From NCBI GenBank assembly GCA_033439295.1, contig JAVTLE010000008.1, positions 2,604,001-2,668,000 of the forward strand: 64,000 bases of DNA. Direction: 5' to 3'. Origin of the DNA: Deuterostichococcus epilithicus. Taxonomy: Eukaryota; Chlorophyta; Trebouxiophyceae; Prasiolales; Stichococcaceae. Within the stretch, counting starts at the first letter, position 1. Each line of letters begins with the position of its first letter. A model generated the notes under the pieces. That model did no database searches and was not told where the DNA came from. It saw only the letters and a list, made by a program, of their open reading frames with translations. The translations under genes and the position numbers were made by a program. This document shows, in pieces, positions 3,001-57,158 of this stretch.

Positions 3001-6000
3001 ATCAATCCGGCAGCATGGATGGGGTGCAGGTTCATAGTCCAGGAGCAGGCAGACACACATGATTGTTGGTATGGCCGTGGTTGATAGCTAATGCCGGTGG
3101 CCCGGCCAGAGCACCGGCTGCTGACAGGGATCTGCAGTGCCAAACGAGCAGCGCCTGGGCGCGGGGCTGGCGCAGGCGAGGCCCGATGCAGCCCATGCCG
3201 CAAGCGGCGGCTGGAGGCACATGCACAGACACAGCGCTACGCGTCTTCTCAGCGCATTGCGGCAGCGGCAACCTGGGCCGGATCACGTGGCGCCGCAGCA
3301 CAGGGCAGGCTTCGGAAGGTGACAAAAGGGGAAAGAAATAAATCGCACGTCCTTGGGGGCGCGCGTCCACAGCGGCTTGTTGTCGTTCTGCACCGCCCAG
3401 TCCTGCACCTCCTTGCTCTGCGACTTCATCACCGGCGCCACCGGCTTCGCCTCCTCACCCTGCAGGGGGATCGAATCGACCACTCGGTGCCCTGGACGAG
3501 GTCCGTGCGCCAGCGTGCTCGGCGCCAGGCCCGGCGAGCGCCGCAGCAGGACGGGCTGGCACTCCTGCGGCCCGCGCGAGGCGGCCCGCTGCGTCCTGAA
3601 ACTGCGGCCAACGGGCGCTGCCAGTCTCCATGCCTACTTGAATAGAATGGACATATAACGGCCCAGGCTCACCTTCTCCTTGGCCTCCTCGTCGGCCTTC
3701 TTCTGCGCCTCCGCGGTCGCCTCAGCATCCTCCACCTGCTCGGTCTCCGACCTGCAGGTGAGATTGGGTTTTGGGTTTAGGGCTTCAGCAGGCTGTTGAA
3801 GTTTTGGAACCCCTTGGCCCGCCAGAGATGCTGGACCGATGGCGCAGCTGCTGTGCCGCTCCAGGGAAAAGGGCCGCTGCCCAGGCCAGTGCGCGGTCTG
3901 TTGCCTCCCGCCTCCCCTTCATGTGCGGGCGCCGCACACACCAAGCCCACAGCTTGAGGGGGGGGGGGAGCGGCCGCAGCCAACTCAATTCTTGGCCCAC
4001 AGCTTGATGGGGAAACAACTCACTTCTTGGCCCACAGCTTTGAGAGGGGCTCCGCGGCGGCCGCAAACAACTCACTTCTTGGCCCACAGCTTGATGGGGA
4101 AGGCGATGAACTCGGAATACTGCTTGATAAGCGCGCTGAGCTTCTTGTCGTCGGCGTATTCCGCGGCATCCTCCTTGAGGTGCAGCGTGATCCGCGTGCC
4201 GCGCGCCAATGGTTCGCCGTCCGTGTCCTCGCGGATCTGCACACAGAGCCTCCACACTTAGCCTCCACAATCCGTGCACGCTTTGCATTCAGGTGCGGCG
4301 TGATCCGCGTGCTGCGCGCCAACGGCTCGCCGTCTGTGTCCTCGTGGATTCGCGCACCACGCCTCCACCACCGATACGTGCTTTGCATTCAGGTGCTGCA
4401 TGATTCGCGTGTGACAAGCACCCGCGGCCTCCCCCGCTGCGTCCGTGCAAGATTTCAGGGTTCAAAATTTCCGCTGCATTCTCAGGTGCTGGTCCAGCTC
4501 AGCGCATGCAGCCGACTTCAAGGCAACCGACTGGCAGGTCCCGGCTGGCGCGGTGGCTCGAAACAGCTTTTGCCAGTGAGCCAGCATATATGATATCCAC
4601 GCAGCGCAAGCCTGTCATTCCTGCTTCAGGTCTGCGATCAGAATCCCTGTTCTTGCCCCATCCCGGAACCGCGGCTGGCGCCGCCAGCGCCGCAGCTTGC
4701 AAAAGCACTAGTTGTTTGCCATGCTGTGCGCTTCGCCGATTGCATGTCAGACTCGTGGCTGGCGGGGAATGCCTTCAGATGCCACACGTTCGTCCTGGCC
4801 GCGTGTGCTTGACTGCATCGTGGTTGCGGACCCAGAGCCATTCGATACGTGGATCAGGATTATGCGCATCACCGCCGACCTTGAACTGGTGGCTGCCGGC
4901 GGCCGCCTCCCAGCGCCACTGCTTGTCCTCGCTGTGGTTGCGGGACTGCACCACGACTCGGTCCGCCACCAGGAACGAGGAGTAGAAGCCGACGCCGAAC
5001 TGGCCGATCAGATTGGCATCGCCCTTACCGTCCTGCACGTTCGGTACAGGGTTTCACATTCGATACAGGGTTGCACAAAATTGAATCCCGTCACCAGCAG
5101 CAGCGGCCTCCGCCGAGTTCAGCTGCCGCTCCCTGCCGTCTGCGCCATGGCAGCCGCCGCTGGGAGGGCCTGCAGGAGGCACTCCCACTGGCGCTGCAGC
5201 CCGTGCTGTGGGGGGACTTGCAGTGCATGGGCCCGAGGGTGTTCGCGGTGCGGCTCGGCACTCGGTGGGGGCTGATGGCGCTAGGCTCCCACCTTCATTG
5301 CCTCGGCGAACTTGGCGGTGCCGGAGCGCGCGATCGTGCCCAGGCTCGACAGGATGTCGTCACGCGTCATGCCGACGCCCGTGTCCCTGCGCATTCACGC
5401 AGCGGAACCGGTCAGCGGCCAGGACGACTGGCGTTTCATGTGGGCGAACGGGGCTCAGACGCTGCCATGGGACGGCAGCAGGCGCCTGGGCCCGGAAGCC
5501 CTGCTGTTGAACGATGATCCCTGCACCTGGAGCCTCCTGCCGGCGGCGGTGGCCGCGCGGGCCTCAGCGCAACGCCGCCGCCGCCGCTGCCGCCGCCGCC
5601 ACAGCATCGGGCGCCCCTGACATGCCCGTGCCATCCACCAGGCACGTCCATGCAGGATGCCAGCAGGGTGTTATGCCTTGTCATTCTTGTGCCGGAATGG
5701 TGCACCGCATGCCGCTCACTCGATGGTGATGGTCTTGGCGTCAGGGTCCGAGCGCACGCGGATCTCCAGGTCGGTGCCCGCCGCCAGCGCCTTGGCGTCG
5801 GACAGGCCCAGGAAGCGGATCTTGTCCAGCGCGTCCGAGGCGTTGGACACCAACTCCCGCAGGAAGACGTCCCGGTTGGAGTACAGGCTGTTGACGATCA
5901 TGTCCATGAGCCGGTCCACCTGCGCCGCAGGGTTTCCGCAGCAGGGTTTGCAGCGGGCAGGGTCTAGTATGTGCAGCGCGGTCCTCACGTCGCGCGGCTG

Positions 6001-9529: not shown

Positions 9530-9575
<46 letters not shown>

Positions 9576-15184: not shown

Positions 15185-16787
15185 TCATGGCGGCGCGAGC
15201 GGGGGCCCCACCAGGAAGTGCAGCAGTAGCGTGTAGATGCACACGAACAGGCGCGCGGCCGGGTGGGCGGACACGAGCTGCGCCGCCGAGTACAGCAGCC
15301 TGCGATACGTCAGAACAGTCGTCGAAGTCGTGCTAGTGAGCGACCAGTTGTTTCTTTTTGGTTTCCTATGATAGTTTCGTTGCAGAAAATTCGTGGCCGA
15401 GTACAAAGCAGCCTGCGCGGCGGGGTGCCGACACAGGGCTTCACTTCATCGGCGGCAGCGCATTCTGCGTGCACCGTCTGCTTTGCAGAAGACCGGCTGC
15501 GCCGCCGGGCACGGCAGCCCGCATCCTGGACGGCGCTGACACAAGGCCGCTCTCAAGCCACAGGCTCAAGGGCAGATGGTTGGACCAGGTTTCGAGGGAC
15601 CAGGCCTGCAGCCATGCCCCGCCGGGGGATCGCGTCTCGGGCATTCTGACATCCCCGATGCGCCAGCCGCCCGGCTGGCTTCGCTTGTCAGCCGCGACAC
15701 CGGAACACAGCGCCGGCCGCGCAGGCCCTACCCTTGCAAAGTCCCACTCCCGCAGCGCCGATGCGGCTCTCGCGAGTGAAGGGGCTGGCGGCTGTGGCGG
15801 AACTGATATACTGCTGCGGCAGGAGACTGCTGGGCTGCTAGGTGACAGAGTGCAGGGCCGGGCCACCCGCCTGTCGTGGATGCCCATGGCAGCTCGCCGC
15901 TCGTCCGCCGCGCGGGCGCGCCACACGGCGAAAGGGTCCACGGAGGCCGAGTAGCTGGCAGCGTACCTGGCCTCCACCGCCCCAGCGCCAGCCTCTGCGT
16001 CGCCTGCGGAACACAGAAGAACACAGGAGCTTGGGAAAGGATCACAATTTGCAAGCCTGCTACAGCCCCTGAAAATCCAAAACACCCTGCGGGGGTGTTT
16101 CAGACGCGTCTCCAGGGCCACGATCTCAGCTCCAACACCGCGCACGGTGGCCTTTGAACCTCATTCACGCACGGGGCGACGGGTCTCGCCTGAGCGGCGG
16201 CCGGCAAAGCCCTGCACGTACTTCAGGCGCTCCACCAGGGCCACGTTGTCGGCGCGGGCGGCATCCAGTTGGGCGCGTGCTTTCGTCAGCTGCTGCCCCA
16301 GCGCCGCCGCGCCTGAGTGACAGAATTCTGTTGCTCGACAGGCATATCAGCCGGCATCCACTGGCGTCAAGGACTGTGGCACAGCAGCCAGCGCACTTGC
16401 ACTCCGCCGGCCCCGTACCTGTTGTCTTTTGTGCCTGCCGCCCCCAGCAACGGTCCACCGCCGGCGAGGCGACAGCAAACAACATGAAACGAAGAGGAGA
16501 ACACAAACATGACTCTACAGCGCTGCTGCTGCAGGCGGCGTTGTGCTGTGACGCGGCGCTTCACACGCCCATGCACACTCCCCGAGCTCGGGCTAGATCT
16601 CTGCTGCGTTCTGTGCGCATTGCATGGCCAGCACAATCTCTGAACTTCAGCGCCCGGCACCGTGACTGCCGAGTGGGAGGTTTGAATTTGGAACGCGCCT
16701 TCCTCCAGGCGCGCGGCGCGCTCCCGCAGCCTGTCCCGCTGCGCGCAGAGCACCTCCACCATCGAGCGCTCTCCGGCAGCCGCTTCC

Positions 16788-16818
<31 letters not shown>

Positions 16819-19800
16819 CAAAGGATGCAGACACGGCGCCCAGCACGCCGTCGGCGTCGCCGGTGCGACTGCTCGGCTGCCCGCCGCCACCTCCGCCGCC
16901 GCCGGCGGCGGCGGATGCTGCCGCGAGGTCGTCCTCCAGCTGGGTCGTCAGGCCCTGTAGACGCGCGACTTCCGCCTCCAGCTCCGCTGCGCGGGCGCTG
17001 GCCGCCTGCGCCTCGTCTGCGTACAGGGTTGAAGGTTTAGCTGCCTGCTGCGATGCCAATGCTTCCGAGTCCAGCAGCCGAGCTCAAAGGCCCCGGATGG
17101 TCGTGCCCCCCATGTGCTCATGTGTTGCAGCCCCGTTCCCCCATGTCAGAAAAAGGCGGCATTGGGGGCACACCCTGTAAGAAGATCAGCCTGTTTGTGC
17201 AGCAGGCTCCGATTGCGGCTCTTGCATGCAGTGCCGGCCTCCGCCGCTGCCACCCACGTCAAGACTGGCGGTGTTCCCTGCGCAGCGCGGCAGCAAAAAG
17301 TCTCAGAACCTGCCTTTAGCCTCTGCGGCCGCCAGGCGCGCCACGGTCGCCTCATGCTCGCAGCGGCGCGCCTTGTCCACGAGCATGGCCTCTAGGCCGC
17401 CGGCGCTGCTGCTTCCGGCTTCCTCGGCGCCCAGCCCGCTCACTACCTGCAGCGCGCGCAGCTGCAGCCGCAGCTCCTGCACCTGTCGGAGAAAAGCACA
17501 GTCACGGTCACACTCGACGTGTGCAAACTGGACACACATATAGATGCATCATGAGAAGGGATGTTTCGGTTCGCTGCTGTGGCGGACCTTGACAGCTAGG
17601 ATCCACTCTGCCGGACATGTGCCATCCTCAATCTCGAAGCTGACACGTGCAGGGGGAATTGAGTTCGTAGTTCTGTAAATCAAAAGGCCGTTATACAAGT
17701 GAAAAGAGCGGTCATGCACATGCCACCAGGTGCTGCAGCGATCTGGCCGCGTGCTGTGTGGCTGAGGTGCTGTGGTGCTGCTGGGCCAACCTTTGCGCCC
17801 ACAGCCTTGCAGCGCCCTACCACCACTGAGGCAGCATGGCAATTGCAGCCCAGAAACCGTACTGACGACCTGCCGCGAGGACAGGGGTGCGTCTCTGTGG
17901 CCCAGCTTGTAGGGACCCGAAGCAGGCGGCTGCCCGCCGGATTTTGGCCGCTGGTCGATCACTTGACCCAGCCGCTCAGCATAAATCTCTGCCATCCCAA
18001 CGGACGCTCAGATGACTGCAATGCCGGGCGAAACGTCTGTGTTCTCTCGACACTGAACGACATCGCACCTCTGCAGGGGTGGCACGCGCCGCCAGGGCGG
18101 CCTGGAGAGCCGCAACTTCCTCCCCTCGCTTTGCTACTTCCACCTGCCAGTCCCGCTCCGCCGCCACGGCCGCCGCCGCCTGCTCCTCCGCGGCCGCCGC
18201 CGGCGCCGCCGCCTCGGAGCGCAGCGCGCTGACAAGAGCCCGCTGCGAGGCGAGCTCCGAGCGCAGGCGCTGCTCCGCGTCGGCAGCATCGGCCGCCGGG
18301 GCCTGCGCCGCGGCGCCGCCACTGCTGCGCATGCGCTCGACCTGCACAGGGTCGCCGACAAGAAATCTCACCTGCGGGGTTCAGCAGCTGCATGCACACG
18401 CTGCCCTTGCAGCCAGGGCAGCCAGCGCCGCTACAGTCCAGCAATCCCAGAGCAAGGCTGTACAGAATTCGATCATATTGATAATAAACACTACAAGTTT
18501 GAAAATTGTGCACACCTGCGACAGCAGCGCCGACTTTTCTGCCTCCAGGCCGGCAAGCCGCCGCTGCGCGGCATCCACCTCCGCAGCCGCCATGTCTGCC
18601 TCCTGCGCCCGCCCCGTCGCCGCCGCCTCCCGGTCGTTTTGCAGCGTGAACAGCTGATTCTGCGGTGGCGGGTCACGGCTCACATGGAGGATTCTGAACT
18701 TGGAGTTGCCCCAGACAAGCAGGAGACAAGTAGGTGATCGGCCCAGCCCTTCGACAGATGCCTTGACTCGGATCTGCGACATCTGCCACCAAACAGGCGA
18801 GTCGTGCAGGAGCGCATTGCCGCCGGCTCTCTGCCAGCTGGTGAGCCTTCCATCAGCACGTGTGATTGGTGAGCATGCGCACATGCAGCTAAGCCTGCGC
18901 CTCGCATGGCTTTGCGCTAAGCCTGCGCCACGCATGGCTTTGCGCCGGCTGAGTGTTTGATCGTCGACTGGTTGCCACATGATCATCGGTCATTCCGCAT
19001 GCTGGCGCACAGCATCATGTTGATCTCTGTCGTCACGGATTGCGCTGTTGCTCCTCCTCTGCAGCTGGAGCAATCCGTTTGCCGTACAGCCTGGTGCAGG
19101 TCACACATGCATGGCACCTAGTGACACTCAAATTCCGCCTCATAGTTAGGAACTAGCAGCTGGGAAGAGCGCAATCTACTGAGCTTGCCTGCGCGGCCTG
19201 GTGCAGGCGGCGCATGGAGTCCAGCCCATGGCGCGCTTCCGTCAGCGCAGACTCCAGCGCCGCTTCCCGTTCAGCCACCTCCTCCGCACTGGGCGCATTT
19301 GCTGGCGCCGCCGGCGCCGCGGCAGCCGCCTCCAGCTCCTTTTCCTGCAGACGCAATACAGAATTGGCTTCGTGGCTTCAGGGGTGCATTCGCTCTGCCA
19401 CCTCCTCCGCGCTGGGCACTTGACGGGCGCCCGCCGGCGCCGCAGCTGCCGTGGCACGTTCGTTCTCCGGGCGCGGCCGAACGCAGCGTCGACACCAAGC
19501 ACCGTGGCGCGCCTGAATCTTCGCGCAGTGACAGGAGAGCGTGCTTTCTTCGCCAGCTGGAGCTCGAGGTCCCTGCCACCCTTCCCCAGCCGGCGCGGCG
19601 TGAGGTTTCGGAGGCATGCAGCAGCGCCGCTGTGTCCTGACACCTGGCCTGCTGGTCTCCCCAGCGGCCCACGCACCTTTTCTGCCAGCCGCGCCTCCAG
19701 CACCCTGCTCTTCTCCTCCAGCCGCCGCAGCGTGAGGTCCTGGTTGCGAAGCCCAGCTGACTCCGCCTTGAACTCCGCCAGCTCCTTTGCCGTTCGTGCC

Positions 19801-20924
19801 GCGGCCGCTTCCGCCTCTGCGGCCCGCCCAGCGGCCTCCTGCGGCAACCGGAACGACTGCGGTCACGTGCCGTCAGAGCCAGCTCTGACCACAGCCTCGG
19901 TCCTGCCGCCCCGACGCCGCCCCTGGTGTCGAACCATTGCCTCCCTGCCTGAGCACTAGTTGTCTATGCCAACACGGCCCATCCGGCGAGCCGCTCACCA
20001 GACCCGTGGCAAGCGCCGGAGCGGGGTCCGGCGCCTCGTACAGTTTCTGGTACACGTCCAGGAACGCCGCCTCACCGGCCTTCGCACGCCCGCCCAGCCG
20101 GTCTATCTCCTCCTGGTACGCCTTCAGCAGCGGCGCCACCGCTTTCGCCACCTCCGGCGACGCGCCCTTGCGGAAGCCTGCGGGCGCAGGGCATGTTTGG
20201 AAGCGCATCTGCCAGCCGAACAGTCGCATTCGCCATCTCCGGCGACGCGGCACTCCTGGAAGCCTGCACCTGCAAAAAATTTGCAGAAACGTCCTCGAGA
20301 AGGGCGTTCGCAGTGCGCAGTCCCGAAGGCGGCAGAGCTGCTTTGCTGTTAGACTCGTTTTTGGATGCGCCTGCTTCAGGCCCCGGTGCCCCGAGGCTTT
20401 AGCAGCTCTTGTTCTACCTTCCCACTCGTCATCTCCTTCCCATGCAGAGATCATGGCTGGTGTAGGACAACCGACTTGCGTGCAGCCGGCTTTGCACCGC
20501 CCCCTTGCACGCACTCTTCGTGAGGTCGGCCAGCTGGCGGCGGCCGTTGAGGCTCGCTTCCTGCGCCGCCGCGATCGCTAGGCCTCGATCATCGAGATCT
20601 TTCCGGTAGACATCCAGTCCGAAGCCTGCGTTGCCGGGAACAGTCGGGTTTTGGGATCTGGTCAGCCATGCACATGTGTTTGCAGCTCGTGCCAAACTGT
20701 TGCAGGCATGGAAGTGACGGTGCTGCGGCGCGAATTGGCCGGATGTCAGATATTAAATGTTGACCCAAGACGAGTTGCCTGCAGCTTTCCTCAGCATGAC
20801 GGCTTTGTAATGCACGTAGAAGAGGCCATTGCAGTGGCGGCTTATAAGCAATCCATGGCAGCGCGCCTTTCCAGAAGTGGGCGCAGACGCTTGCTGCGGC
20901 AATGGCGTCATGTGGCGTGTCCAT
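15185..20924 (-). CDS. CASP: CASP homologue, Golgi coiled-coil tail-anchored protein
   Basis: Golgi membrane tether related to the CUX1 splice product CASP, about 646 aa. Exons (complement): 15185-15299, 15871-16003, 16190-16312, 16699-17016, 17314-17482, 18069-18341, 18516-18659, 19189-19344, 19677-19838, 19999-20177, 20515-20625, 20867-20924; phases agree throughout. N-terminus has the family FWK followed by FGLDVYRKDLDDRG, then AYQEEIDRLGGRAK and FLDVYQKLYEAPDP. A long Ala/Glu/Arg coiled coil follows, interrupted by two poly-Gly runs (near 16900 and 16800). The C-terminal CASP domain shows MVEVLCAQRDRLRER, ADNVALVERLKYVQG, YAASYSASVDPFAVW and a final hydrophobic anchor (RLFVCIYTLLLHFLVG). 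Six of 11 introns have GC donors, including the first (20865-20866). The poly-Gly runs and the short tail after the anchor are unusual. Confidence 0.9.
19391..19458 (-). repeat. Ghost copy of CASP exon 19189-19344 5' end
   Basis: Intron copy of the exon start at 19271-19347. The copy still reads PSAEEVAER on the gene strand, matching functional PSAEEVAER, then runs out of frame; the same Ala/Pro-rich GC stretch precedes it. Confidence 0.85.
19546..19620 (-). repeat. Ghost copy of CASP exon 19677-19838 3' end
   Basis: Downstream intron copy of the exon end. Gene-strand reading NLTPRRLGKGGRDLELQLAK parallels functional DLTLRRLEEKSRVLEARLAE. The donor GT is lost in the copy. Confidence 0.88.
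20224..20273 (-). repeat. Ghost copy of CASP exon 19999-20177 5' end
   Basis: The plus-strand segment at 20141-20189 (core cacctccggcgacgcg) recurs as catctccggcgacgcg at 20224-20273, with the following gaagcctgc acceptor region. Encoded ASPEVAKA versus ASPEMANA. Confidence 0.88.
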
Positions 20925-27280: not shown

Positions 27281-27354
<74 letters not shown>

Positions 27355-33300: not shown

Positions 33301-36300
33301 CATAGCGTGCACGGGGCACCTTGTAGGTGCGGCCCCCGCAGGGTGTGTGGCGGCCCTGCTGGACAGACCCGTGGCACCTTGTGGCGTCGCTGGCGGGTGT
33401 GACTGCACGTGGCAGGGCGCACACAGCTGCCACTGCTCGACGGCCAGCCTATCTGGCGACAGACTGTGCACCGCCCGTAGGCAGTCTTGCGGACACAAGG
33501 AAATATTGATGACGGGGCGCCCCGCCTTCGTTTCCGCAGCAGCCTGACCCTTTGTGAAAAGCCATGGCGATTTGGGCGGCGGGAAACAAACCGTCGGGTC
33601 GAGGGGTTGGAAGCTCCGCACACAAAACAAAAACAAAGTCAAACTTGATTCAATTTTTCTATAAAGTACCTGTCGCCGTAGTCCTGCATCGCGTGCGCCA
33701 GCGCCGTCGCGGCGGAAAACGGCTGCAGCCGCTCCGAGAAGTTGAAGCGCAACTCGCACAGCGCCCGATTCTCCTCCCACACCTGCTCCGAGATTCCGCC
33801 ATCGCCCCGCAGCACCGCCAGATAGTCGAACACGAGAGCTAGCACCTCGTCAATCTTAGCATGACCTGCGCCAAAGGGCACACACAGCATGGACAGCTGA
33901 ACTGCTGCACCTGCACAGAGGCGCACAACACATGCTTGTCAGGGGCCGGCCTGACGCCAACGCCTCGTCAAACCTGGCGTGGCCTGCGGCGGCAGTGGGT
34001 CGTCATACGATGCGCAACTTGGTTGCGTGAACGGCACCGCAGCAGATTGTGAGATGGAGATGTTCAGCTTGCAGCCCACTCGACAACTCGCAGATGCAGA
34101 ACGCCGCCAGCAGAGCAATCGCCGACCCTCAGCCTTGCGCCTATGTAGGCGTGCTTTGAGCACACTGCGGAGCGTGAGTCCACTGCGGCGCACACATGCA
34201 GGGCAGAGAGCAGCAGGAGCATCTGCTGGTGGCTGCACTCATGACTTTCGAACTTTGCACGCTGCGCCGCAAACGTGTGCACGGCAGCCACAGTGGCTGT
34301 TCTTATGGCGATGACTGGGAGAATAGGCCACAAAGCCCGTTAGTTGTCGAGTTATTGAGGCACGAGCCCAGAAGGTATGAGGAGTTTCAGCCCTGTGTTC
34401 CAATGACGCAAGCAGTCACCAGACATGCCCAGTCCACCCCCTGCATGTATTGAGGAGGAGCGACGGTCCGTGATGCCCGACGGGACGATCAACCAACATT
34501 GTATGTATCAAGTACCAGGCAGCAGAAAGCGGCGCCCTTCTCGTGAACAGAGCAGGCTGGCGCCGCACCCTCGTCGGTGAGCACGATGCAGACGGAGAAG
34601 AGGGAGGCGCCGCTGAATGACAGCCCGCTCTCGCCGGCAGACAGCTCCACCGCCAGGCCGTTCGCTTTCAGCAGCGCAAACACACTGCCGTCGCCCTCGT
34701 GCCTGCAACAGCGAGTGCATTTAGCAAGTGTAAACCACTCTCTCCCTTCCTGCGGTTGGAGTAGGCACAAACATCCTGCGCATCTCGCCAAGCTGAGCGC
34801 CTCGAGCGCTGGAACACGCTGCATTCACCACAGCGCCTGCAGCGGGAACAGGGGCTGTCAACGTTGAAAAGCAGAGAGCGTTGCTAGGCCCGTCTGCCAG
34901 GCAGCATGCCTCGATCAGCACATAAACGATGCTGCCACCCTCGTGCCTGCAGCAGGTGGTGTAACGTTAGATCTAGTTTGTAAGGCGAGGTGGACTGACG
35001 AGCCTGCCAACTGCTTCAGTGCCAGGCCTCTCGCCTCAGCGCAGAAACGCTGCCATCACCTTCCTGCCTGCAGCAGCATACAAGAGCATGATTGCGAATG
35101 AGATGAGGCGCTGGCAGGGCTCACATCATTTGCATTCCAAGCGCAATGTTGTTGCCCCGTGCCTGCAGCCGCTGGTGTGTCAGCCCTGCCAGAGCTTCAG
35201 CAATCGTGCACCTGACTCGGAAACTCGCCAACCTGCCTGCATGCTGCTGGCCTTCGCGCATCTTCGTGCAGAAAACCCGCTGCTCCGTCCCAAAAAATGC
35301 CGTCCTAATTTAGGGTCCAACCCGAGCTCATGCGCAGGGCGGCCCGCGGTTGGCCTCCACTTCACTTCTGGCGGCACAGGCCAGTGCGACTTCTAGATGG
35401 TGCACTACTCACACAAGTCCTGCGTTCTGTCGGCACTTGCTTGCGCGATCGTGGAGCCCACCCTCACAACTACCAGACCACTTGTCAAACCCACCCGAGC
35501 AGGTGCGACAGGTAGCCGCAGGGCTGCGCGCGGTAGGCCTTCACCTCCGGCGGCACCACCCAGTGCAGCTCCACCGTGTGGCGGTCGGTCTCGGGCACCA
35601 CCTTCAGCAGCAGGCCCCCCTGCTCTGGCGTTGCGATGTCGCCTGCGTGAGGCAGCAGGCGGGAGCTCACTCGGACCGGAGGCGGGAGAAAGCAGGCGGA
35701 AGCTCGGACCGGAGTCAGGTGGCTATGGTGGCGGGTGCTGTCTAGGGGCAAAGCGAGCTCCGGGGGAGCCTCATATGCGCTGCTGTGGCGCGGCAGCGGC
35801 ACCCGCAGGGTGGGACCTTCAGGCTGTGGGAAAGATGCACGTGAGGGCCTGCGGGTGCTCGCGAAGCGAGCCTGCGAGACCATATTTTGCCCTGCAGCAA
35901 GCCCTGCAGAAAAACTGCCTGCTTTGCACATTTGCATGCCGTCCCTCTTCAAACCAGGCCGCCCCTCACCCGAAAACTGCGGCGCCGGCAGCTTCTTGTC
36001 GGCGATGCCGCCGAACTTGTCCCGCGCCAGAGCCTCCAGCTCGTCCAGGGTCTGGCGGCCGACGAGCGCGCCCCGCATCAGGTTGGCGGAATATTTCGCC
36101 TCCCAGAAGCGGCGCACCTCCTCGTGTACTGCCACCGCCAGCTTCTGCGTTTCTAAAGGTTTGACATGTTCACTGCCAGGCCCCGTCTGATGCAAAGCTG
36201 TGCAGACCGGCGGATGATGTACGCCGGTCAAGCCAGCATCGGCCCAGTCATGGCGGCAAGCACATGGCCAGCTGCTCAAGGCTGCCGTCAACAGATCCTG

Positions 36301-38672: not shown

Positions 38673-41600
38673 TCATTGCTGCTTGCACTCCTGCGGCTGC
38701 TGCGCGGTGTCGGCCGCGGCGGAGCGGCCCTTGCCCCTCACCTCGCCGGCCTCCTCATCGTCGTCCTGCGGGCGCCACCAGAGCCGGCGGCTGCGCGGCC
38801 TCAGCATGCTTGAACGGAGGCAACAAGCACATTCCCAAAACAGGTCTGCCGCCCGCCACTGCGAACCGACACCGACTGCCAAACACGCCAACCGGATGCA
38901 AGGGCTTGCCAAATATTGCACCCTTACGGGTTGTCACCCTTGAAAGGCATCCGACAACAACGCAGCGACAACACACCAGCAGCAGCGCGGCCGGTGGGTG
39001 GGAAAGGAGGTGGCGAGAAAGATGGCGGTTCCTCCAGGCTCCGCAAGGCGCACAAGCTACAGAGACTGTAGCGACGGCGCCCACCTCATCATCGTCATCC
39101 TCATCGTCATCGTCTTCGTCGTCGTCATCCTCATCGTCGTCCTCGTCATCGTCCTCATCGAAATCCTCCTCCTGCTCGATGGCGTCCCCCGTGTACCAGG
39201 CCACCGCGTGCGGGATGAGCTTCTCTCGGATGATGTCCCTGTGTGTGACGGACGAGGGGTTTAGAGTATCAGGGTAGATTTACAATAGACAGCTCTGATG
39301 AGAACTTGTGTGTTCGGCATGGCACTCTGGTGGCTGGGGTGAACCTTCGCGAGGAAAGTCACTTGTAGGGCACGGCCAGCAGGAATGGAGCACCCGCAGG
39401 ACACTGGTGACATCCAGGTCCGCTGGTAGTTCAGCGACCTTCTAGAAGCGGAGTCTGTAGAGCAGGCCTGCATCTCTCGATGCTGACGGCATTGCAAACG
39501 CAAAACATGGCCAAGCGCCCTCATTGATCTGCTGCCATTGCTCAATTAGCCGACAACGACACTGCTGCTGCCGGTGCAGATCTGTTATTTAAAAATGTCA
39601 GCAGCAGCGGCCAGCAGCAGTGGCAACGGCGACTTTGGGGCAATGGCGGCACCAGCCAAACGCTTGACCCTTAGGGCGCATCCAACTTGGCAGTCCTCCA
39701 AGACATCCTCCAGGACGACAGCTGTGCACGACCTGCAGGCGCCTCGATCGCCGCCTCAGGCGCACAGCCCAGGACCCTGCTGCAGCCGCTGCAGCACCCA
39801 AATGACCCTAAACCCTACAGACCCCCCTGAAAGCGCACCCCATCTCGTAGTCCTCCTCGATGACGGCCTGAAGCTCCTCGATCGCGTCCTCCGTCAGCGT
39901 CGCGCCCTGCTCGGGCACCTCTGGCGGCGTGAAGAAGTCGAAGAAGCTGGGCACCGGCTCGAGCTTGGTCTGCGGCTTGGCGCCCGGCTTGGCGCCCTTC
40001 TTCGGCTTCTTCTTCATCACCTGGCGGGCCAGGAATGAGTGGGATGAGGATGCGATGGTGAATCGACAGGCAGGGCGGCAGTTTGCAGGCTTGCGCGCCC
40101 TGCTTCGGGTCCTTCATCACCTGGCAGGAAGAGACCGCGGCTGTCAAGAATGGGGAACGGAAGGTCTTTGATGAAACCTGTGTCACCAGGTTCGCCAACA
40201 CCAGGCGGATAACACAGGACAACTGCGGCTGTCAGGTCTGCCGACTGCGCTGTTTCCGCGCCAGCAGCTGCGCAGGCAGGGCGCTGTGGCAAAGCACACT
40301 GGCATGCTCTCTGCTGGCACCCCTCCAGACAGCCCTCCTAGCATTGCCATTACAATGGTCTTGACCTGACAACCCCACCATGATTACAGGAGACAACAAG
40401 GAGTACGACGAGAACAGCCACGCGCCCTGACAATGGGGTCGGTGCCGGCGTCCATGTCAATGAACTAGCCAGCCCAAAAGTCCACAGGAGCGACCACGCA
40501 CCTTGCCGGCGTCAATATCAATGGAGCAGCGAGCTTGAAAGTTCACAGGCGCGACCGCGCACCTTGACGGTGGGGATCAAGATTTAGGGTTTGGGTATCG
40601 CGCACCTTGACGGTGGGGTTCTTGCCGGCGGCCCACTCGATCTTGGTGCCCTCCGCCTTCTCCAGCACATTGTCCTCATCCTCCGCCATGTGGTACGTCT
40701 TCGTCTAGCGCAGACACGCCAGAGGAGAGGCGCGTCAGCAAACACTGGTGTATGGGCAAGATGCGGGCAGAAACACAGGATCCGGACAAGTCAGCAGGCG
40801 CAAAGTCAGCAGGCGCAGTGGCGGACTCTGCAGTATGTTGCGACTGATCTGGCGTCCAAGGAACCGGGGCCGAGTGGGGACCTGGACGACTGCAGCGCAC
40901 GGCACGCAGCGCAGCGCCGTGCGCCGCAGGCGTCACATCGTCGCCGCCTCCCCTGGGTGCACTTGGAATTGACCCACGTATGGAACAGCTGCAAGTGGAG
41001 GCGCTTCTCGACAGGCTATTGACGAGGCGTGCAACGGTGGCACACTCCCAGGTCGGCAAGGCATAATCCCGAGGCGCACAGCGGCCTGACAGCAGAACGA
41101 TTCGCGACTCCAAGCAGGGCGGGTGCGGCGGTCGTGTGACACTCAGCGAACCCCTGGAAGATCACGTACTCAGAGGAGCACGCACCAGCGTCTCGTGCGG
41201 GAAGAAGGGGTTCTTGGCGAAGTGGAAGGTCAGCCGGAAGCCGTACTCGCCCTCCTCCGGGTCCAACTCCTCGTCCGTGATGTCCGTCAGGAATTCCAGC
41301 ACCGCCTCGTCCTTCTCCGAGATCTGTTTGGTAGAAAGCAGGACACATCGCACAACTCGCAAGCAGGTGCTCGGTCTATTCTGTCGATGCTTCCCATCAC
41401 GAGCCAATCGCTGACTTGTCGTTGTGGATTCGCATGTAAACAGATCGCAACCACGTTTGTTTTCGATGATGCTTTCCCAACTGCACCACGTCCATATTCC
41501 CCGTCAAGAACATGAGAGATTGTTGCAGGCGACGCCAAAAATGCACACACCCAGAGGCACCATGCCTGCCCTCAGCACGCTGACAGTTGACGACGCCGCC

Positions 41601-43535: not shown

Positions 43536-43846
43536 CACTCCTGCCTCGCGCTGCGCTGCAGTGTCAGAGGCGATTCAAAGGTGTTTTGATGGTTTAGCAA
43601 GCTTCCTCAGGATGCAGATACTTGACGCAGGATGAAAACGCGCACTGCAAATTGCAGTTGGCATTTTCGAGAAATGCTGCCCTAATAAACATGGACTAGC
43701 AACGCTAGCTCGTGTGCATGTATGCTGTACTGTACACATCAGCAGCGAATAGAACGCGATCTACAGCTTGTCGAACAGCTTTATAGAGGATGACTTCTGT
43801 CCCAGATGCGCACACATTGGCGTCGCGCGAGTAGCGTCTTCTGTTG
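43536..43846. promoter_or_regulatory. Bidirectional promoter region NAP1 / NYN gene
   Basis: 311 bp between two divergent start codons; lower GC than the coding flanks. No specific element can be named with confidence. Confidence 0.45.
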
Positions 43847-45597: not shown

Positions 45598-45719
45598 AGT
45601 GGACGAGGCTGGGATGCCTGCGGCTCGAACGAGGCCTGGCGGCAGGGCAGCGGAAGGATGCCGGGCATCAGCCTGTGGTAGGAACAGCTATCCTGTCATG
45701 CACTCCCCTCTTGACTGAG

Positions 45720-46512: not shown

Positions 46513-49500
46513 TCAGATGCAGAGGGCGGCCGCACCGAAGTTAATGGCCACCCAGTCTGGCTGTGTCGTGGACCACTGCAGCTGGTTGATCTCCGCCCCC
46601 GCGCTGTACGCAAGAATCGGGTCTGCGCATGGGAGGCGCATGGCGGTCAGACCCGGGGCACAATTCTGAGCTTGCGGCTGAAAGCTGCGGTCGTCCGAGA
46701 CGACGGACGAGCAGCATTTGTGTCACACTCGCCAGAGGTCCAGTCCGCACTGGGGCTGGCCAGGCAGGAGTGTAACCCCTGGAAAGTGCCACTCAGCGCA
46801 GCAGATCGCCATCAGGTCTTGATGTGCATGGCAGGAACACGCACAGCAGCGTCCAGAGCGACGGGCACCAGCACAGGGTGTGTGAACAATGCGTACCCAG
46901 GCCCTGGTCCATGGACTGGCTCATGGAGGACAGGTCCCAGATGAGGGCCTGGCTGTCGTCGCCGGCGGTGCAGATGTGGCAGGAGGAGTGCGGCGCCCAG
47001 GCCAGCGCATTGACGCACGCCTGGTGCCGCTGCAGCTCTGCGACCGGCAGCGTGGGGAACCGGATGTCCAGCACCACCACCTGCGCAGCGGCGGCGGGCG
47101 CCAATGAGATGATGGATGCTCCATTCTGGCTCAGTGATGACTGGGTGATAGAAGAGGTGAAGAGCAGAAGGAGGTGAGCCTGGAGCGATGGTCGCGTTGG
47201 GGAGCGAGTGGAGATGGTGTGAAACCCACAACTAATATGCAACTTGCGCTGGGATTTATAGCCACACATGACCCTGCCCACCTACTTGCCTGCGATGCAT
47301 GCACATGACACTGGCTGGTTGCCTGGGCATATAGCTGCAACCGGCAGAGGGTTTACCTTGCTGGAGTCCATGAGGATGGTGGCCATGTAGCGCGGATCCT
47401 GTTTGTTCCAGCCCAGCCGCAGCAGCGGCGACCCGCCGTCGCCGCTCTCATAGATGATAGTGCTGTGCTCCTTGTCTCTGCAGGTTGGAAAGGCAACCAC
47501 ATTGGCGTGACCCCAAGTGTGTTTCGAAGGAACTCCGGGCTTCTTGCCGGCCGCAGGCCGCGATGGGGCTCTTGGCGTCATGCCGGCCGCTGACCGAGTC
47601 TCGATGCGGCTGCTGACACCAGCGCACAAGCCTGTCTGTGCGCCGGCGCACAAGCGATCTTGATGCTGGAGCAGCTCGGCATGTGCCAGGGTGCTTCAGC
47701 ATGCTACCTCAGGGCAGACACCCTGCCGCCTGTGCACGACCCACAGACCGGCAGGCCAGCACCCGGTCACATGCTGGAGGAAATGACGCTTCAAATGCAG
47801 CCTCCCAGGGGTGCGCTGCTCACCGCAAGTCGAAGACGCGGACGGAGCCGTCAGCAGAGACGGAGGCAAAGACTCCGACGCCGCCCCACGCGATGTCGTA
47901 CACCTCCTTGTCGTGCGCTATGAGCTGCGTGTCCACCACCCCCCGCTGCAGGGGGGAGGTGAAGTAAATTTGCTTTGAAGATGTTTCCAACGAAAGCGAT
48001 TGGGGAGCTAGCGCCGTCAGCCTCCTCGTCGGACACGCCATGAGCTGCATGTCCCGACATCCCGCTGCAGGGTGGTGTACCGATATTGAACGACGCAGGC
48101 AAAGAACGGGGACTGCCATTGTTGTGCAGTGTGCATACATCACCAGGCGCATGTACCCCTCCCTTCGCGGGGCATCAAACGGAAACTCATGGGCCACATC
48201 GTCAGTCGAAGAGCATGCCACCCTGCAGTGCTGCCGTCCGCGCTCGCGATGTCGCGCGGGCGGGTCACAGCGCCCCTCTGACACTCTTTCCAACGCAGCG
48301 GCCGCGGGGTCGCCGCTGCCTGCATGGGCGCAAACCGCGCGAGCACCCCGAAGCCGGGCGCAGACGGCGTGCCTTGCCGCAGGCGGCGCGGCAAGTCACA
48401 CCGCAGGCATGACTTGCCGCAGGCAAATGTGTTTTTCTTTTAACTTTTTTGCAGGGCGCGGCGCGGCGAGTCACACCGCAGGCAGCGGGGGGGAGCAGAC
48501 CTCTATGTCCCAGATGGTGCAGGTCGTGTCGATGGAGGAGGTGCCCAGGCGCTTGGGGTCCGTCTCGTTCCAGTCGAAGGACGTCAGCGGTGCGCAGAAC
48601 TCGCTGTTCTTGTTCTGCAAAGGACCGCACAGGGTGCGCACGTCGGACGGACGACGCCGGCATTCGACGGCGGGTTCTGCATGCCTGCGGGCTGCACCCG
48701 AGGGCCTGGGCGCCGCACGGTCCTCATGCAGCGGTCTGTGCGGCCACGAGCAGGTCAGCTTGGCTGCATGCGCCCGCTGTGCGGTGCCGCGGCGGTGCAG
48801 CCTGTGACACAGCAGCCATGTTCGGGATGGCCAGCAGGGCCTCCCCGTGGGTGGCAAGCAGCAGCAATGCAGCAGCCGCCGCGCTGCCGCGGCTGCACAC
48901 TCTCGTGATGCCGCGCAGCTCCTGCGGCGGGTGCACTCGCAAGGTCGAGCAGCAGCTTTAGAAGCGGCAGCAACCCACATTGTTGAGCAGCTTCTGCAGC
49001 TTGACGCCGTCTTCGGTGAGGTGCCAGAGGCGCAGGTAGTCCGCCGTCGTGGCCAGCAGGTCGGGGTGGCCGGTGCCCTCCTTGTCCGGCATGAACATGA
49101 TCTTGGTGGCTGGGTACGGATGCTGGAAGCACAGCCGCGGGTCGGACGAGAACTTGCCCGTCTCGTCGTCCACTGCGGCGGGAAGGTTGGTTTATCTAGG
49201 GCCTATGCATGGGTGCTGGAAGCAAAGCCGCAGGTCGAGACTCGAGCAGCAGCAAGGTCGCTGGGGATGGGGCCACCCACGCAGGGCTTGGCTTGGCATG
49301 CCGCAGTGCAGATGCTACGGCTCAGGCAGCGCACACGTCCAGATGGCAGACACGTCAGAGGTTATCACGAGGGACTGCCCCATGCATGCATGGGGCGGCC
49401 CTAGTGCCCGTGAAGGAGATGCGAGGGGCATCAGGTGGAGACAGGAGACGCAGCCAGCATCACGACAGGAAGACGCGCGCACATGTGATGATCTCGATGC

Positions 49501-50044: not shown

Positions 50045-51185
50045 GGCCGGCCCCTGCTGATGACTGCCACGACGCCAACACTGCCACCGCGCTCTGATAG
50101 CAAGATTAACACAGCCGCCCACCGCCGCCACTGCTCCTGGAGCCGCGCTGAACCAGAAGTTTGTGCCAGCGGCCTGGCCCTGCTTTGGGGCTAGACGTCA
50201 CAGCAGCGGGCAGCCGCCGCCAGGCCGGCTGCGCTTTTGGCTCTAACCGCCCAAGCCGCGAGCAGTAGTCGGTGACTGTCAGCTGCCGACCGGGGGCCTT
50301 CGGGCCGAGCGGCCAACCGGAGCCCGCCGGCGCTGGCACCGCGAAGCACAGTGCTGCAGGAAAGCACGGTGGTCACCGCGGAGGCTGCACGGCTGCGCTG
50401 CGCCGCGTTGCACGCGCTGCCTTTGGCGGATCAGACCAACGGACTGGCCTGCCACTGGCGGTGGCAGCGGCTCTCCACCGTTTTTTGCCTCCTGGGTCTG
50501 CCGGGAGCTGCAACTGCCGGCTGCTGCTCCAGAAGCCGCACAATCCCGCTGGGTGTACAGTAAGGAGGGTGGCCTGAGGTTCCCGGACCCTGCAAATTGA
50601 CGCCTGGCGAACACGGCGGTGCGCGTGCGGTGCTGACCGTCCTGGCTGAAACGAGTATCGATTTGACCAGGCTGCACGCACGGGTCTGACCTTGCCGTGC
50701 ACCTGCTCGCTGCACAAAGGTTCTGTGTCGGATGCAATGTCTGACAGGGTTGTTGCTTGCTCTCTGACGAGGTAACGATGGTCCAGCTCAGCGCCAGCTC
50801 ATCCGGATGCGGCAGATACTTGCAGACACTTAGCTCGCGCAGCCGGCATCGACTGCCCAGAGTTGCCTACGGCAATTCAAGACTTGCTTTGCCTGGAGCA
50901 GCCTCCGGACTTGCCGACAGCACATACGAGGCCGGCTCGGAAACATGGCGGCGCAAAGCGGCGTCTCTTGCAGGTGCAGCTGGCCTTCCCGACCTACGAC
51001 CCCGGCAGGAAGTTGTACAATGATCGTCATAAGTACCATCTCGGTCCTCGTGCCGCTCGGAAGTCCGTACCTGCTTCACGCCAGCGCCTGCCTGGCGATT
51101 GATTTCGTGGACGATCCGCAGTACGGCAGATGAATCTGTAGGGCTGTGCGCGGCAGACGAGCTGACAGAACAGGTGTCTCGTCAC
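50045..51185. promoter_or_regulatory. Divergent region LWD1-like / HisG; may hide HisG exon 1
   Basis: About 1.1 kb between divergent genes. The first HisG coding exon must lie in or near here because the frame of the first recognised exon has no ATG; the ATG at 50778 is a candidate but no phase-consistent donor was found. Confidence 0.35.
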
Positions 51186-51201
51186 GTTGCCTCTTTCTCA
51201 G

Positions 51202-53775: not shown

Positions 53776-54377
53776 TGCCAGAGGGTGTCTGGCCTCGAGA
53801 AATTTGTGAGTCTGGGCGGTGTCTGGTTCTGTGCTGGAACACTCGATGCACGACCAGCGTGCAACAATTTTGCTGTACAGTAGTGGCAGCGGCAGCGATA
53901 GTGCACGCTGCCAATGTGCATTCGTGAAGCGAAGTCGAGACCGTCAAGATATTCACAGTCGGGTGGCGATGTCCGCACCGCAACGCAGATGACACGTCTT
54001 GGAGGCAGCCGGCCTACTGCAGCTCGGTGGGCAATTTTTGCATGTCCAGAGAAATTGGCCGCCCTGCAATGCACAAACAAGCCTAAACCCTTTCCTGTCA
54101 GAGCAAGCCTTGCGAATTCTGGAGCCTTCACTTTACCAATTCGCAAGTGATTTGATATAAATACTGCCAGTTGGGTATTGAACACCTCTAGGCTACTTTT
54201 GGTGACGCTTTCGCTGTTGGCCTCCGAGTCTGACCGGTTTCCGACCATTCTTCCTTGCAAACCGACCGGCAACTTCAATCATCTAATTGCTGGACTGCAG
54301 CAGAGCTACAGAGCACTGCGCTCCGCAAGCTTTGGCTTCGTAACGCGCATCTACCGACCTCTGGTCGGCGCTGCGGC
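53776..54377. other. Spacer HisG 3' end / PSMA7 5' end
   Basis: 0.6 kb between two plus-strand genes; holds the HisG 3' UTR and the proteasome subunit promoter. Nothing else recognised. Confidence 0.4.
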
Positions 54378-57158
54378 ATGTCTCGCTATGACAGAGCCAT
54401 CACAGTCTTCTCGCCAGACGGGCATCTGTGAGTGGTCGCCGCGCTCCCGCCTTGCGCTTTCTGCATGCTGTGTGTCACCCGTGCTGAGCGAGGCTGGCAC
54501 CCGTGCTGTGTGCACACCATCCGGACACCGACCACATCCAAAACCATTGCTGCGTCCATGTGCTGCAGTCCCACATGTATCATGCACTGCTCAGAGCAGT
54601 CCAGTGATGCTGAAGTCGTGAGCGACCTGTTCCTCATCGAAGCCTCCTTCCACATGCAGGTTCCAGGTGGAGTATGCGCTCGAGGCGGTGCGGCGAGGCA
54701 CTCTGGCAGTCGGAGTGCGCGGCACCGATTGCGTCGTGCTAGGTGGGCCGTTTTTCTGGCTCGGTGCAACATCAGGATGCAGGTCTCAGCTTCGCATGGC
54801 CACAGGCTTGCACCCGCGACGGCTTGCCGACACCCCTCCAAGTTGTGCATCCATTGAGTGAAAAACCCACGTCCACAGCGGCAGGGTGACGTCCCGCGTT
54901 TGGGAGCGACCCATGCTGTGAGGTGCACCACGGCGAGATGCAAAGAGTGTACTGCGCAGGCGCGGAGCGGAAAAGCGCCGCAAAGCTGCAGGACGCCCGA
55001 AGCGCGCGGAAGATGGTGAAAGTGGACGACCACATCAGCCTGGCGTTTGCAGGACTTACCGCAGACGCGCGTGTGCTCATCAACAAAGGCGAGCGTGCAT
55101 CGGCTTGTGGACCTGCGTTTAAGGGACGAGGAGAGGGGAAAAGGGGATTAGGGGGGGNCTGCTCTGAGAGCTCTGCGAACGGTCCGGCAGGCCCCCGTGC
55201 AGCACATGCACCATCTGGCTCGCTGATCGGTGCGCCTGGGCCCGATCCGCAGTGCAGCATGCGCCACAGAGCTGCCGGGAGACGCTGGGCAAGCCGGTCA
55301 GCGGCTTGGTTTGCGGCTGAGCCAACCTCCGCGCGATTGCCTGCAACCAGTTGCAAGCCCCTGTCCTGGGATGGCGCTGGAGTCGCGCAGCATGGGTGGT
55401 GTCGCACAGTCACCGGCTGATGCTGGAGTAGTGCTGGAGCTGGTTGCTGAAAGGCCCGAACCTGTTTTGTTGCCTGCCTGTGTCCCCCTGACACGAACTG
55501 GCCTCGGGCATCGCGCAGCACGGGCTGCCGGCTGACCGTGGACGACCCGGGTCGTGTCGAGTGCCGGGCCCGCTACATCGCCGGCATCCACCAGCGACAC
55601 CGATTGGTCACCGACCTCATCAATTGTGTTGGCATCGCGCAGCGCGGGTGGAGTCGCAGAGCTACCGGCTGACGCTGGACGAGCCGGTGGGTGTGGAGTA
55701 CCTGGCCCGCCACATCGCCGGCATCCAGCAGAAGTACACACAGTCAGGCGGCGTGCGCCCCTTCGGCATCTCGACACTCGTCGCAGGTGGCGTGTCGGGA
55801 TCATCTGTTGGAGCTTCCTCCTGTGAAAGCAAGCCACTCGAGGGGAAGGCAGCTGGCAGGCTTGGGGATGTGTGCTTTCGCGCTCCCCCAGGGTGGGCAC
55901 CCACCCCCGGCGCAGGCGCAGGCCGAGATTCAGCTGCACGTTGTTTGTTTCACCGGGAGGTGCCCTGCTGGCACGCACCCGATCTGCAACAGCGTCAGTA
56001 CAGCAGTGCACATGGACGATTTGCAATGCGCACGGTCTTGCTGCATTGCCGTCGCACACCCGGGCCCGCACGGCAACAAGGCCGGTCAATGCCAGAGCGC
56101 ACATCGAGGCGAGAGTTCCGAGTTCCGGAGTCCGGAACGCTAAACCCTAAACTCTCCACGAGCAGGGTTCGACCCGGAGGGCAAGCCGTGCCTGTACCAG
56201 ACGGACCCCAGCGGCACCTTCTCCGAGTGGACCGCCAACGCCATCGGGCGCAACTCCAAGACGGTGGGACCACCACCGTCCATTTTCGCAAACCTCCACA
56301 TGCGCCTGTTTTGCCGTCCATTGGTCTCGGCAGACGCGCAGCCGGTCGACCGGAAAACTTCATTTTAAAATTGGAAAAAACCATGTTTTTCGGCGCAGTC
56401 AGGCCTTTTTCCCCAGGCCGAGCAGCTGGCTGCCGTGTACCGCAAATGGCGCAATCTATCAGATGCACATGTTGAGCGGCGCTGGTCCTGGGTCTCCGCA
56501 GGTGCGCGAGTACCTGGAGAAGCATTACGAGGAGACGAGCGGCGACGCGACCGCCAAGCTGGCGCTCAAGGCGCTGACGGAGACAGTGGAGGCGTCGGCC
56601 AAGAACATCGAGGTGGCTGTCACCACCAAGACCGGCGGTGAGCGTTCGGGACTGGGGATCATCCGTGTGCAGTGAGTGTGTGGTTGATGCGTTTATTTCT
56701 GTCATCCTCTGTTGCGGCTGGCAGGTTGCAGGTGGTGGGTTTAGGGTTTAGGATCTAGGGTCGTGACGAGCCGGCGTCGGCACAGCGGCGGCAGCCTGTA
56801 CATTGGGCAACTACCGGCGCAGAATCCGAGCGCCTCCGCCTCATCCCAACCAGAGGCCTGGACACGCAGGGCCGTCGCTGTTTGGTGCCGCCAGTGGCCA
56901 CTGCCACCACCGGGCATTCCACGGCTGCAGGCCTGCGGTCAGATGGGACAGCTCAAACAGCCTCCCATCCCGAAGCTAGCCAGAGCCCTGAACCGCTACA
57001 CCCTGAACCAAAAGCAACCTTGCGATGCAGGCCTGAAGTTTCTGTCGGACGAGGAGGTGGATGCGCTGCTGGAGGCCATCAAGTCGGAGAAGGAGGCGGC
57101 AGACGCGGCTCGCCGCGGCGGTGGCGGCGGCGCCACGACGCCGGCGGCGGGCAGCTGA
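54378..57158 (+). CDS. PAD1: 20S proteasome subunit alpha type-7 (PAD)
   Basis: Structural alpha-ring subunit of the 20S proteasome, 255 aa, the expected size. Exons: 54378-54427, 54660-54742, 54960-55088, 55643-55786, 56166-56263, 56502-56637, 57031-57158; all phases agree. The alpha signature [19 protein letters not shown] spans the first splice. Further landmarks are [93 protein letters not shown] and a C-terminal helix ([19 protein letters not shown]) followed by a short Gly/Ala tail. Intron 3 has a GC donor (55089-55090) and contains an N base (55158) and ghost copies of exon 4. Confidence 0.97.
55265..55600 (+). repeat. Three ghost copies of PSMA7 exon 55643-55786 in intron 3
   Basis: The acceptor and first half of exon 4 are repeated upstream: 55506-55600 (best; shares catcgcgcagc, ccggctgac, ggcccgc and catcgccggcatcca), 55372-55441 (older; shares tcgcgcagc, accggctgatgctgga) and 55265-55303 (faint; gagctgccgggagacgctgg). 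The best copy keeps an AG acceptor but has lost 12-13 bases and is out of frame. Confidence 0.92.

Follow-up and report, generated by a model that had tools for sequence, protein, structure and literature searches.

Degenerate copies of exon ends in introns of Deuterostichococcus epilithicus: probable remnants of old, short tandem duplications

Why should an intron harbour decayed copies of the very exon ends by which it is bordered? The question is raised by a stretch of 64,000 nucleotides from the green alga Deuterostichococcus epilithicus (contig JAVTLE010000008.1, C7:2604001-2668000; hereafter the window), for which an earlier note, made from the sequence alone, had claimed at least 12 exon ends with one to three copies each in the genes HSP90C, CASP, M16, NAP1, LWD1-like and PSMA7. 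We designate a degenerate copy of an exon end inside the adjoining intron a “ghost”. The window was analysed together with five 40-kb pieces of the same genome, altogether 264 kb of 46.8 Mb, the assembly of which consists of 21 contigs with CCCTAAA arrays at contig ends. As one of six pieces, the window nevertheless provides 16 of the 47 ghost junctions described below, which means that the sample was partly picked for the finding. Gene models were predicted by a semi-Markov gene finder self-trained on the 264 kb, which converged on (C/A)AG^GTG(C/A)G as donor and YGCAG^G as acceptor (^, splice site). Its training genes contain 386 introns with a median length of 291 bp, the median of the exons being 126 bp. 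The intron analyses refer to 382 introns from predicted genes scoring at least 20; the junction test covers the 378 of them which comprise at least 100 bp, the other four being too short.

The exon-end ghosts are real and more numerous than first claimed. At a score of at least 40, the exon end recurs within its own intron at 47 of 756 junctions, 20 of them on the donor side and 27 on the acceptor side, as compared to none in shuffled introns, 0+1 (donor+acceptor) with the reverse complement and 1+2 with an exchanged exon. Both the excess over shuffled introns and the presence of copies on the 5' side, the 3' side or both are thus confirmed. The duplication is local and the copies are direct, in the same orientation as the exon end. 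Smith-Waterman alignment at a score of at least 72 yields 85 local direct pairs (82 of which were retained) against 0 at an offset of 4-4.8 kb, 3 at 9-9.8 kb and 1 after dinucleotide shuffling, while BLAST at 30 bits finds 98 direct, 8 inverted and 0 shuffled matches 20-1000 bp apart. BLAST seems to suppress pairs near the self diagonal, so that short offsets are under-counted in these local numbers. In five other 1-kb distance bands, direct BLAST matches number 2-9 in four and 32 in the 2-3 kb band; the latter presumably represent a separate repeat. A low-complexity filter reduces 94 BLAST pairs to 86, of which 61 are composed of exon and intron. An origin from assembly duplication is ruled out, 59 of these 61 pairs being only 70-90% identical, as are chance and low complexity by the shuffles, the reverse complement, the distant offsets and the exchanged exons. 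Ghosts occur in all six pieces, though rarely in two of them.

Within the 61 exon-intron pairs, not all of which are independent as some stem from one array, mismatches at codon positions 1, 2 and 3 amount to 135/864, 124/859 and 174/859 (15.6, 14.4 and 20.3%), and 21 of the 32 indels comprise a single nucleotide. Such values are expected of a ghost which drifts freely, combined with a few wobble changes in the exon; a coding constraint on the second copy, as in tandem or mutually exclusive exons, is absent by the codon-position test of these 61 pairs. The decay is hence neutral and, together with the local excess, supports the earlier proposal of a recurrent short tandem duplication across splice junctions with subsequent decay of the duplicate. 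The duplicated unit is of narrow size. The offset to the nearest ghost has a median of 118 bp (interquartile range 94-135, n=47), larger offsets often representing multiples within arrays, and uniform sizes of 80-150 bp fit the offsets in a simulation with two replicates (Kolmogorov-Smirnov P=0.43). Broader size models, with two replicates each, fail in the same test (log-uniform 20-500, 2e-8; uniform 20-400, 1e-21; shifted exponential, 4e-4). At HSP90C 4175, C1c 25082 and C1c 25753 (C1c, like C1b and C3a below, being one of the 40-kb pieces), nearly full head-to-tail units including intron are preserved. An array at C1b 32 kb contains five copies which, according to the alignment, repeat at the level of dimers, and this suggests successive rounds of duplication.

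The ghosts are tied to intron length. Ghost-bearing introns are longer than others (median 440 bp, n=37, vs 277 bp, n=345; P=2e-8), and the fraction of introns with a ghost rises from 1 of 93 at 180-260 bp to 14 of 43 above 520 bp. A longer intron also has more space to accommodate a ghost, an objection which the density per kb (0.05 at 180-260 bp, 0.21 at 260-340 bp, 0.35 at 340-420 bp and 0.44 above 420 bp) answers only partly. The suggestion that introns grow in this way is nonetheless supported as far as a contribution to their length is concerned. Intron birth is a different matter: the signature expected of it, an intron start which equals the start of the downstream exon and/or an intron end which equals the end of the upstream exon, is found in only 1 of 382 introns, with a null of 0. 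This single case, a 135-bp intron at C1b 38662 (+), looks like a candidate for an intron born by exonic tandem duplication, its start copying the start of the downstream exon with 88% identity (33 bp of a 40-bp match) at an offset of 135, equal to the intron length.

What, then, makes exon ends so prominent? Among the 53 pairs at an offset of 60-160 bp, 39 combine exon or junction with intron, where random placement leads to an expectation of about 15; intron-intron and intergenic pairs number 4 and 5 (15 expected in either case), and 5 are of other types. We simulated tandem duplications of 80-150 bp dropped randomly at about one attempted event per kb (one run per age), with exon-internal ones purged, exons conserved and everything else drifting. 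Ghosts, intron-intron and intergenic pairs are then obtained in a ratio of 51:12:7 if t is 0.35 and of 17:2:0 if it is 0.45, as compared to the real 39:4:5, and at t of 0.25 or less intron-intron pairs are about as common as ghosts or commoner. Since randomly placed old duplications bracket the class counts, the exon-end bias can be survivorship within an old cohort. An exon-end-specific process is not needed, as it can be that only pairs with a conserved exonic copy remain recognisable.

The age of the copies is consistent with this explanation. Young copies are scarce, whole-alignment identity exceeding 90% in only one of the 61 exon-intron pairs. Acceptor ghosts resemble simulated ones of t=0.4-0.5 both in exon identity (0.85 vs 0.84) and in flank identity (0.35, nearly that of random sequence, vs 0.39-0.35), and in simulated cohorts of this age 28-11% of the ghosts are still detectable. 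With the class-specific detection rates of the simulation, constant births reach a log-likelihood of -23.7 and two epochs one of -7.1, a difference of 16.6; at best, constant births predict 19, 17 and 12 ghosts, intron-intron pairs and intergenic pairs, respectively, against the observed 39, 4 and 5. The best two-epoch fit consists of an old epoch followed by little or no activity and amounts to about 390 events in the sampled 264 kb; with about 115 bp apiece, these would make up roughly a sixth of this DNA, a figure of the model rather than a measurement. As constant births fit badly, the modelling points to an old pulse of duplications.

Taken together, we consider it fairly probable that the ghosts are the decayed halves of short tandem duplications (80-150 bp, median 118) which arose more or less blind to sequence features, mostly in an old episode and at about one per kb. 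Such a duplication would span a splice junction and splicing would continue at the outer site, leaving the inner exon-end copy stranded within the intron, where it would drift neutrally and add to intron length. The events would have struck more or less regardless of feature, in the order of one per kb of the sampled DNA, and most of them would belong to an old episode, dated to about 0.3-0.5 substitutions per neutral site before the present. Exon-end pairs would have diverged mainly along one branch, whereas most equally old intron-intron and intergenic pairs would be beyond recognition; exon ends would stand out because their exonic copy is conserved. Fill-in repair of staggered breaks or of paired opposite-strand nicks is the likely cause, a repair pathway suggested by analogy, and no new machinery is needed. 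More speculatively, and with a rather low probability in our judgement, a single agent peculiar to this lineage and working with a constant stagger of about 80-150 bp, e.g. a nicking enzyme or abortive target-primed retrotransposition, could in one episode have produced about a tenth of the 264 kb or more and thereby left a datable record of intron growth. The breaks may have favoured the neighbourhoods of splice junctions, where telomere-like words also cluster.

Several observations weigh against this account. Two assumed rates underlie the simulated ages, that of indels (0.12 per substitution) and that of wobble changes. If the exon part alone is regarded, an identity of 0.90 is attained by 5 of 28 ghosts on the acceptor side and by 4 of 14 on the donor side, over 17-68 nt and in some over only 17-27 nt. 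With uniform ages, the flanks are less alike than plain tandem duplication predicts, the mean flank percentiles being 0.12 for the 18 of 27 comparable acceptor matches and 0.10 for the 9 of 14 comparable donor matches. A C1b ghost at an offset of 260 is 96% identical over 68 bp while its flanks share little, and C1b 31255-31300 matches 31348-31393 over 46 bp at 98% across an unrelated 47-bp spacer which contains CCTAAACCCTAG. Near-identical ghosts with unrelated flanks point to short-tract conversion or templated copying, or to junction targeting. Only 10 of the 53 pairs at 60-160 bp align over at least 70% of the unit (counted by hand); the head-to-tail layout is directly visible only in this minority, the intron parts of the other pairs being too decayed. 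Introns of 60-180 bp deviate slightly from the length trend (0.26 ghosts per kb, 2 of 54 with ghosts). Finally, ghost density differs between genes (P=0.009) and ranges from 0.7 to 17.1 per 100 junctions across the six pieces (P=0.0003), an unevenness which a uniform pulse does not predict. The extremes, about 20-fold apart, are C4a (C4:600001-640000) with 13 of 76 junctions (17.1) and C1a (C1:200001-240000) with 1 of 140 (0.7); C3a, at 0.9, likewise has one ghost junction. Hot regions, gene expression or exon conservation could be the cause of these differences.

Any alternative has to accommodate the same observations. If breaks or nascent-strand template switches preferred exon-intron junctions, e.g. 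at R-loops, and copied the exon end, its location would stem from the mechanism and not from survivorship. The predominance of exon/junction-intron pairs (39 of 53 vs about 15 expected) agrees with such targeting, as do the two high-identity ghosts without flank homology and the fall of ungapped similarity at the splice site, from 0.64-0.79 at positions -4 to -1 to 0.18-0.46 from -7 outward (n=28). So do the telomere-like words, which are visible without a conserved partner and, at 7 of the 11 separate intronic sites, are 21-33 nt away from an exon. Yet old random duplications come close to both the class ratio and the flank decay in the simulation, the three nearly full units include intron sequence, and none of the 11 telomere-like sites is near a ghost (0.9 expected). 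We therefore regard junction-targeted copying as unlikely. A steady, still ongoing duplication with constant births, in which intron sequence would decay at about three times the rate of the exon sequence in ghosts, appears less probable still. It would render the flank percentiles unremarkable (0.54 acceptor, 0.48 donor) and account for the 9 of 42 ghosts whose exon part reaches 0.90 identity, but constant births, with which fast introns were not combined in the fit, remain far from the observed 39, 4 and 5 (-23.7 vs -7.1), and the single pair above 90% over its whole alignment likewise speaks against them.

A retention of the ghosts for some function, be it that of an alternative exon, a poison exon or a decoy splice site, is very improbable. 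A usable junction position is available for 28 of 36 acceptor and 14 of 20 donor matches. AG is kept in 18 of the 28 ghost acceptors, somewhat more than in the neutral simulation (about 0.48 at t=0.3-0.4, 0.34 at t=0.5), but GT in only 4 of the 14 ghost donors; with acceptors slightly above and donors below the neutral expectation, these sites give no consistent signal of selection, and they are presumably unused. Functional alternative exons were rejected on account of the nearly flat codon-position pattern and the frameshifting 1-nt indels, and the idea of a reservoir of alternative or poison exons, put forward in the earlier note, finds no support. Least credible of all is an insertion of dispersed repeats, introner-like mobile ones or others, into the introns. 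Introns are indeed the site and the copies carry splice signals, but the distant-offset controls contain 0 and 3 pairs against 85 local ones. A search of the 46.8 Mb with the M16 and PSMA7 ghost introns, in which only the best candidates were scored and common words skipped, retrieved for both nothing but the own locus; without matches at unlinked loci for these two introns, mobile repeats were rejected. Short tandem duplication, mostly old and more or less blind to features, remains the explanation we prefer.

The ghosts of the window are compiled in the table below. At a score of at least 60, it contains 25 exon-intron pairs on about 20 exon ends, i.e. more than the 12 initially named: 5 in HSP90C, 3 in CASP, 6 in M16, 1 in NAP1, 3 in LWD1-like, 1 in PSMA7 and one further (59524-59567) in a gene outside these six, which from its predicted translation we take to be EF-hand/thioredoxin-like. 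At a score of at least 72, 16 of 198 junctions possess a ghost. Up to three copies per exon end, as originally described, are indeed present, with three ghosts each in PSMA7 and M16. In the M16 array the third ghost was located by BLAST at 35155-35178, TGCAG^GCA is kept in all four copies, and two tiny exons of the gene model, 34829-34836 and 35212-35236, are probably not genuine. A further M16 ghost (29612..29658), detected by BLAST only and absent from the Smith-Waterman list, stands outside the tally of 20, and the CASP copy at 20225..20267, located just upstream of the predicted start, was left out of the exon-intron counts. Between the two weak CASP ghosts at 15396..15522 sits a predicted 20-nt exon.

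Table. Ghosts of exon ends in the window (positions are those of the window; score, Smith-Waterman score)
Feature	Position	Strand	Exon copy	Offset (bp)	Score and basis
HSP90C exon-end ghost	963..992	-	1091-1120	128	70
HSP90C exon-end ghost	1705..1745	-	1623-1663	82	84
HSP90C exon-end ghost	2428..2472	-	2553-2602	125	80
HSP90C, two donor-side ghosts of exon 4076-4236	3945..4049	-			162; direct-repeat family D6
HSP90C donor-side copies	3970-4014, 4005-4049	-	4057-4101	87, 52	
HSP90C acceptor-side ghosts of exon 4076-4236	4288..4411	-	4175-4311	113	224; alignment; direct-repeat families D7 and D12
HSP90C second acceptor-side copy, more decayed	about 4365-4480	-			see preceding row
CASP, two weak ghosts	15396..15522	-	15277-15304	111, 219	62, 68
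CASP ghost	19391..19451	-	19268-19328	123	78 (shorter stretch); BLAST, 82% identity
CASP ghost	19545..19606	-	19679-19738	134	72
CASP copy of first predicted coding exon	20225..20267	-	20140-20181		84% identity
M16 weak ghost	27921..27959	-	28077-28113	156	60
M16 ghost	29612..29658	-	29511-29557	101	BLAST, 77% identity
M16 ghost, donor side of exon 30182-30340	30044..30105	-	30197-30257	153	100
M16 ghost, acceptor side of exon 30182-30340	30398..30436	-	30272-30310	126	86
M16 ghost	31094..31129	-	30952-30987	142	94
M16, three acceptor-side ghosts of exon 34569-34702	34850..35215	-		array of ~120	98, 70; alignment
M16 ghost	35333..35387	-	35517-35566	184	90
NAP1 ghost	40088..40128	-	39986-40028	102	84
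LWD1-like ghost	48021..48075	-	47903-47956	118	90
LWD1-like donor-side ghost	48383..48409	-	48458-48484 (19/27 bp intronic)	75	96% identity
LWD1-like ghost	49211..49237	-	49118-49144	93	78
PSMA7, three acceptor-side ghosts of exon 55643-55786	55267..55594	+		array of ~130	78, 110, 164; alignment
PSMA7 ghost copies	55267-55298, 55383-55427, 55524-55594	+			
EF-hand/thioredoxin-like gene (presumed), weak ghost	59433..59476	-	59524-59567		64

Eleven genes were predicted in the window, four of which, checked in Pfam, contain NAP, Proteasome+HisG, WD40 and DNA methylase domains. The designations HSP90C and CASP derive from the appearance of the sequences and not from a search. Among the best 120 of 397 matches of the M16 protein, Myrmecia bisecta provides the best named one (53% over 99% of the query), other named matches belonging to Coccomyxa (51-52%) and Trebouxia (50-51%), which like Myrmecia are trebouxiophyte green algae. 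HisG (ATP phosphoribosyltransferase) and PSMA7 lie head to tail at 50945-57158 and were merged into one prediction; as read from the sequence, at 55095 the PSMA7 intron may have GC instead of GT as its first two nucleotides. Across all six pieces, repeats at an offset below 60 bp are in 8 of 11 cases intron-intron, unlike the 60-160 bp class, and probably result from slippage as a separate and younger process.

In the 264 kb, introns contain 13 occurrences of telomere-like words (GGTTTAGGG/CCCTAAACC), intergenic DNA contains one and exons contain none, while an anagram control has a mean of 1.2. They are situated, among other places, at window positions 3773, 39805, 56140 and 56737, at C1b 28036, C3a 32502 and 33652, and C4a 33386; 11 of the intronic sites are separate. 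AACCCT and AGGGTT are about 5-6-fold enriched just inside donors, AAACCC and AACCCT about 5-fold just upstream of acceptors, where these words may represent a branch-point-like CTAAAC. The C1b 31255 pair looks like a copy plus filler rather than a plain tandem duplication. As a general filler between copies, telomere words had to be discarded, with this one suggestive case and no association in 11 overall. For human and horse, telomeric repeats are described as becoming inserted when breaks are repaired (PMC7215372).

Intron growth without mobile elements is usually inferred indirectly. Here, the conserved exon ends serve as a clock-bearing tag for otherwise invisible duplications, and a single genome suffices to read off at what rate, in which unit size and how long ago small tandem duplications arose. 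If pulse and narrow unit hold genome-wide, the introns of this alga would owe much of their length to the scars of repair. The comparison of each exon end with its own intron is applicable to any annotated genome, with the caution that an apparent targeting of exon ends can be survivorship.

How far does this resemble what is known? The earlier note knew of no named system. This does not hold for repair-mediated duplication and boundary-spanning tandem duplication, both of which are published (PMC2671141, PMC4974935), while the density, the narrow size and the age structure look new. Among the papers listed in an open-access search, with subscription papers mostly outside it, we found no genome-wide survey of exon-end ghosts. 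The repair-mediated duplication of proximal DNA described by Pace et al. 2009 for vertebrates, with a proximal median of 147 bp in human, likewise yields short local copies which include exons and intron splice sites; its intensity declines with time, and the two complete exon copies tested there are under no detectable constraint (PMC2671141). It differs in that vertebrate copies lie on average about 1.2 kb from the donor, a peak which its authors consider a possible artefact of the method, and in that copies within 50 bp were excluded as tandem (PMC2671141), as opposed to close copies with a unit of about 118 bp and an estimated density near one event per kb in the alga. In the potato RdRp gene, Ma, Lan and Niu 2016 report a tandem duplication over the acceptor and the exon start and a second one of 83 bp in the first intron (PMC4974935). 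Here too an intron-exon boundary is duplicated in tandem, but one gene gained an extra exon and a new intron (PMC4974935), whereas in the alga tens of junctions are concerned and the inner copy seems to persist as ballast in the old intron. Rogers-type intron gain by exonic tandem duplication, with cases in Drosophila (PMC2891723), shares with the alga that duplication and splicing turn copied sequence intronic, and the 135-bp intron at C1b 38662 fits it; the ghosts, in contrast, lengthen existing introns and make no new ones. With respect to mechanism, fill-in at staggered breaks gives rise to small tandem duplications in mammalian cells, and among short insertions (<100 bp) in the human genome, tandem duplications are stated to be the commonest (Schimmel et al. 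2021, PMC8355091); in rice, repair-type duplications of 10-1000 bp are reported (review PMC7407515, citing Vaughn and Bennetzen 2014). Fill-in offers a homology-independent route to short head-to-tail copies of the kind assumed here, the algal units differing by their clustering at 80-150 bp. By analogy, the ghost process thus resembles known repair-mediated tandem duplication, from which its density, narrow unit and age structure appear to set it apart.

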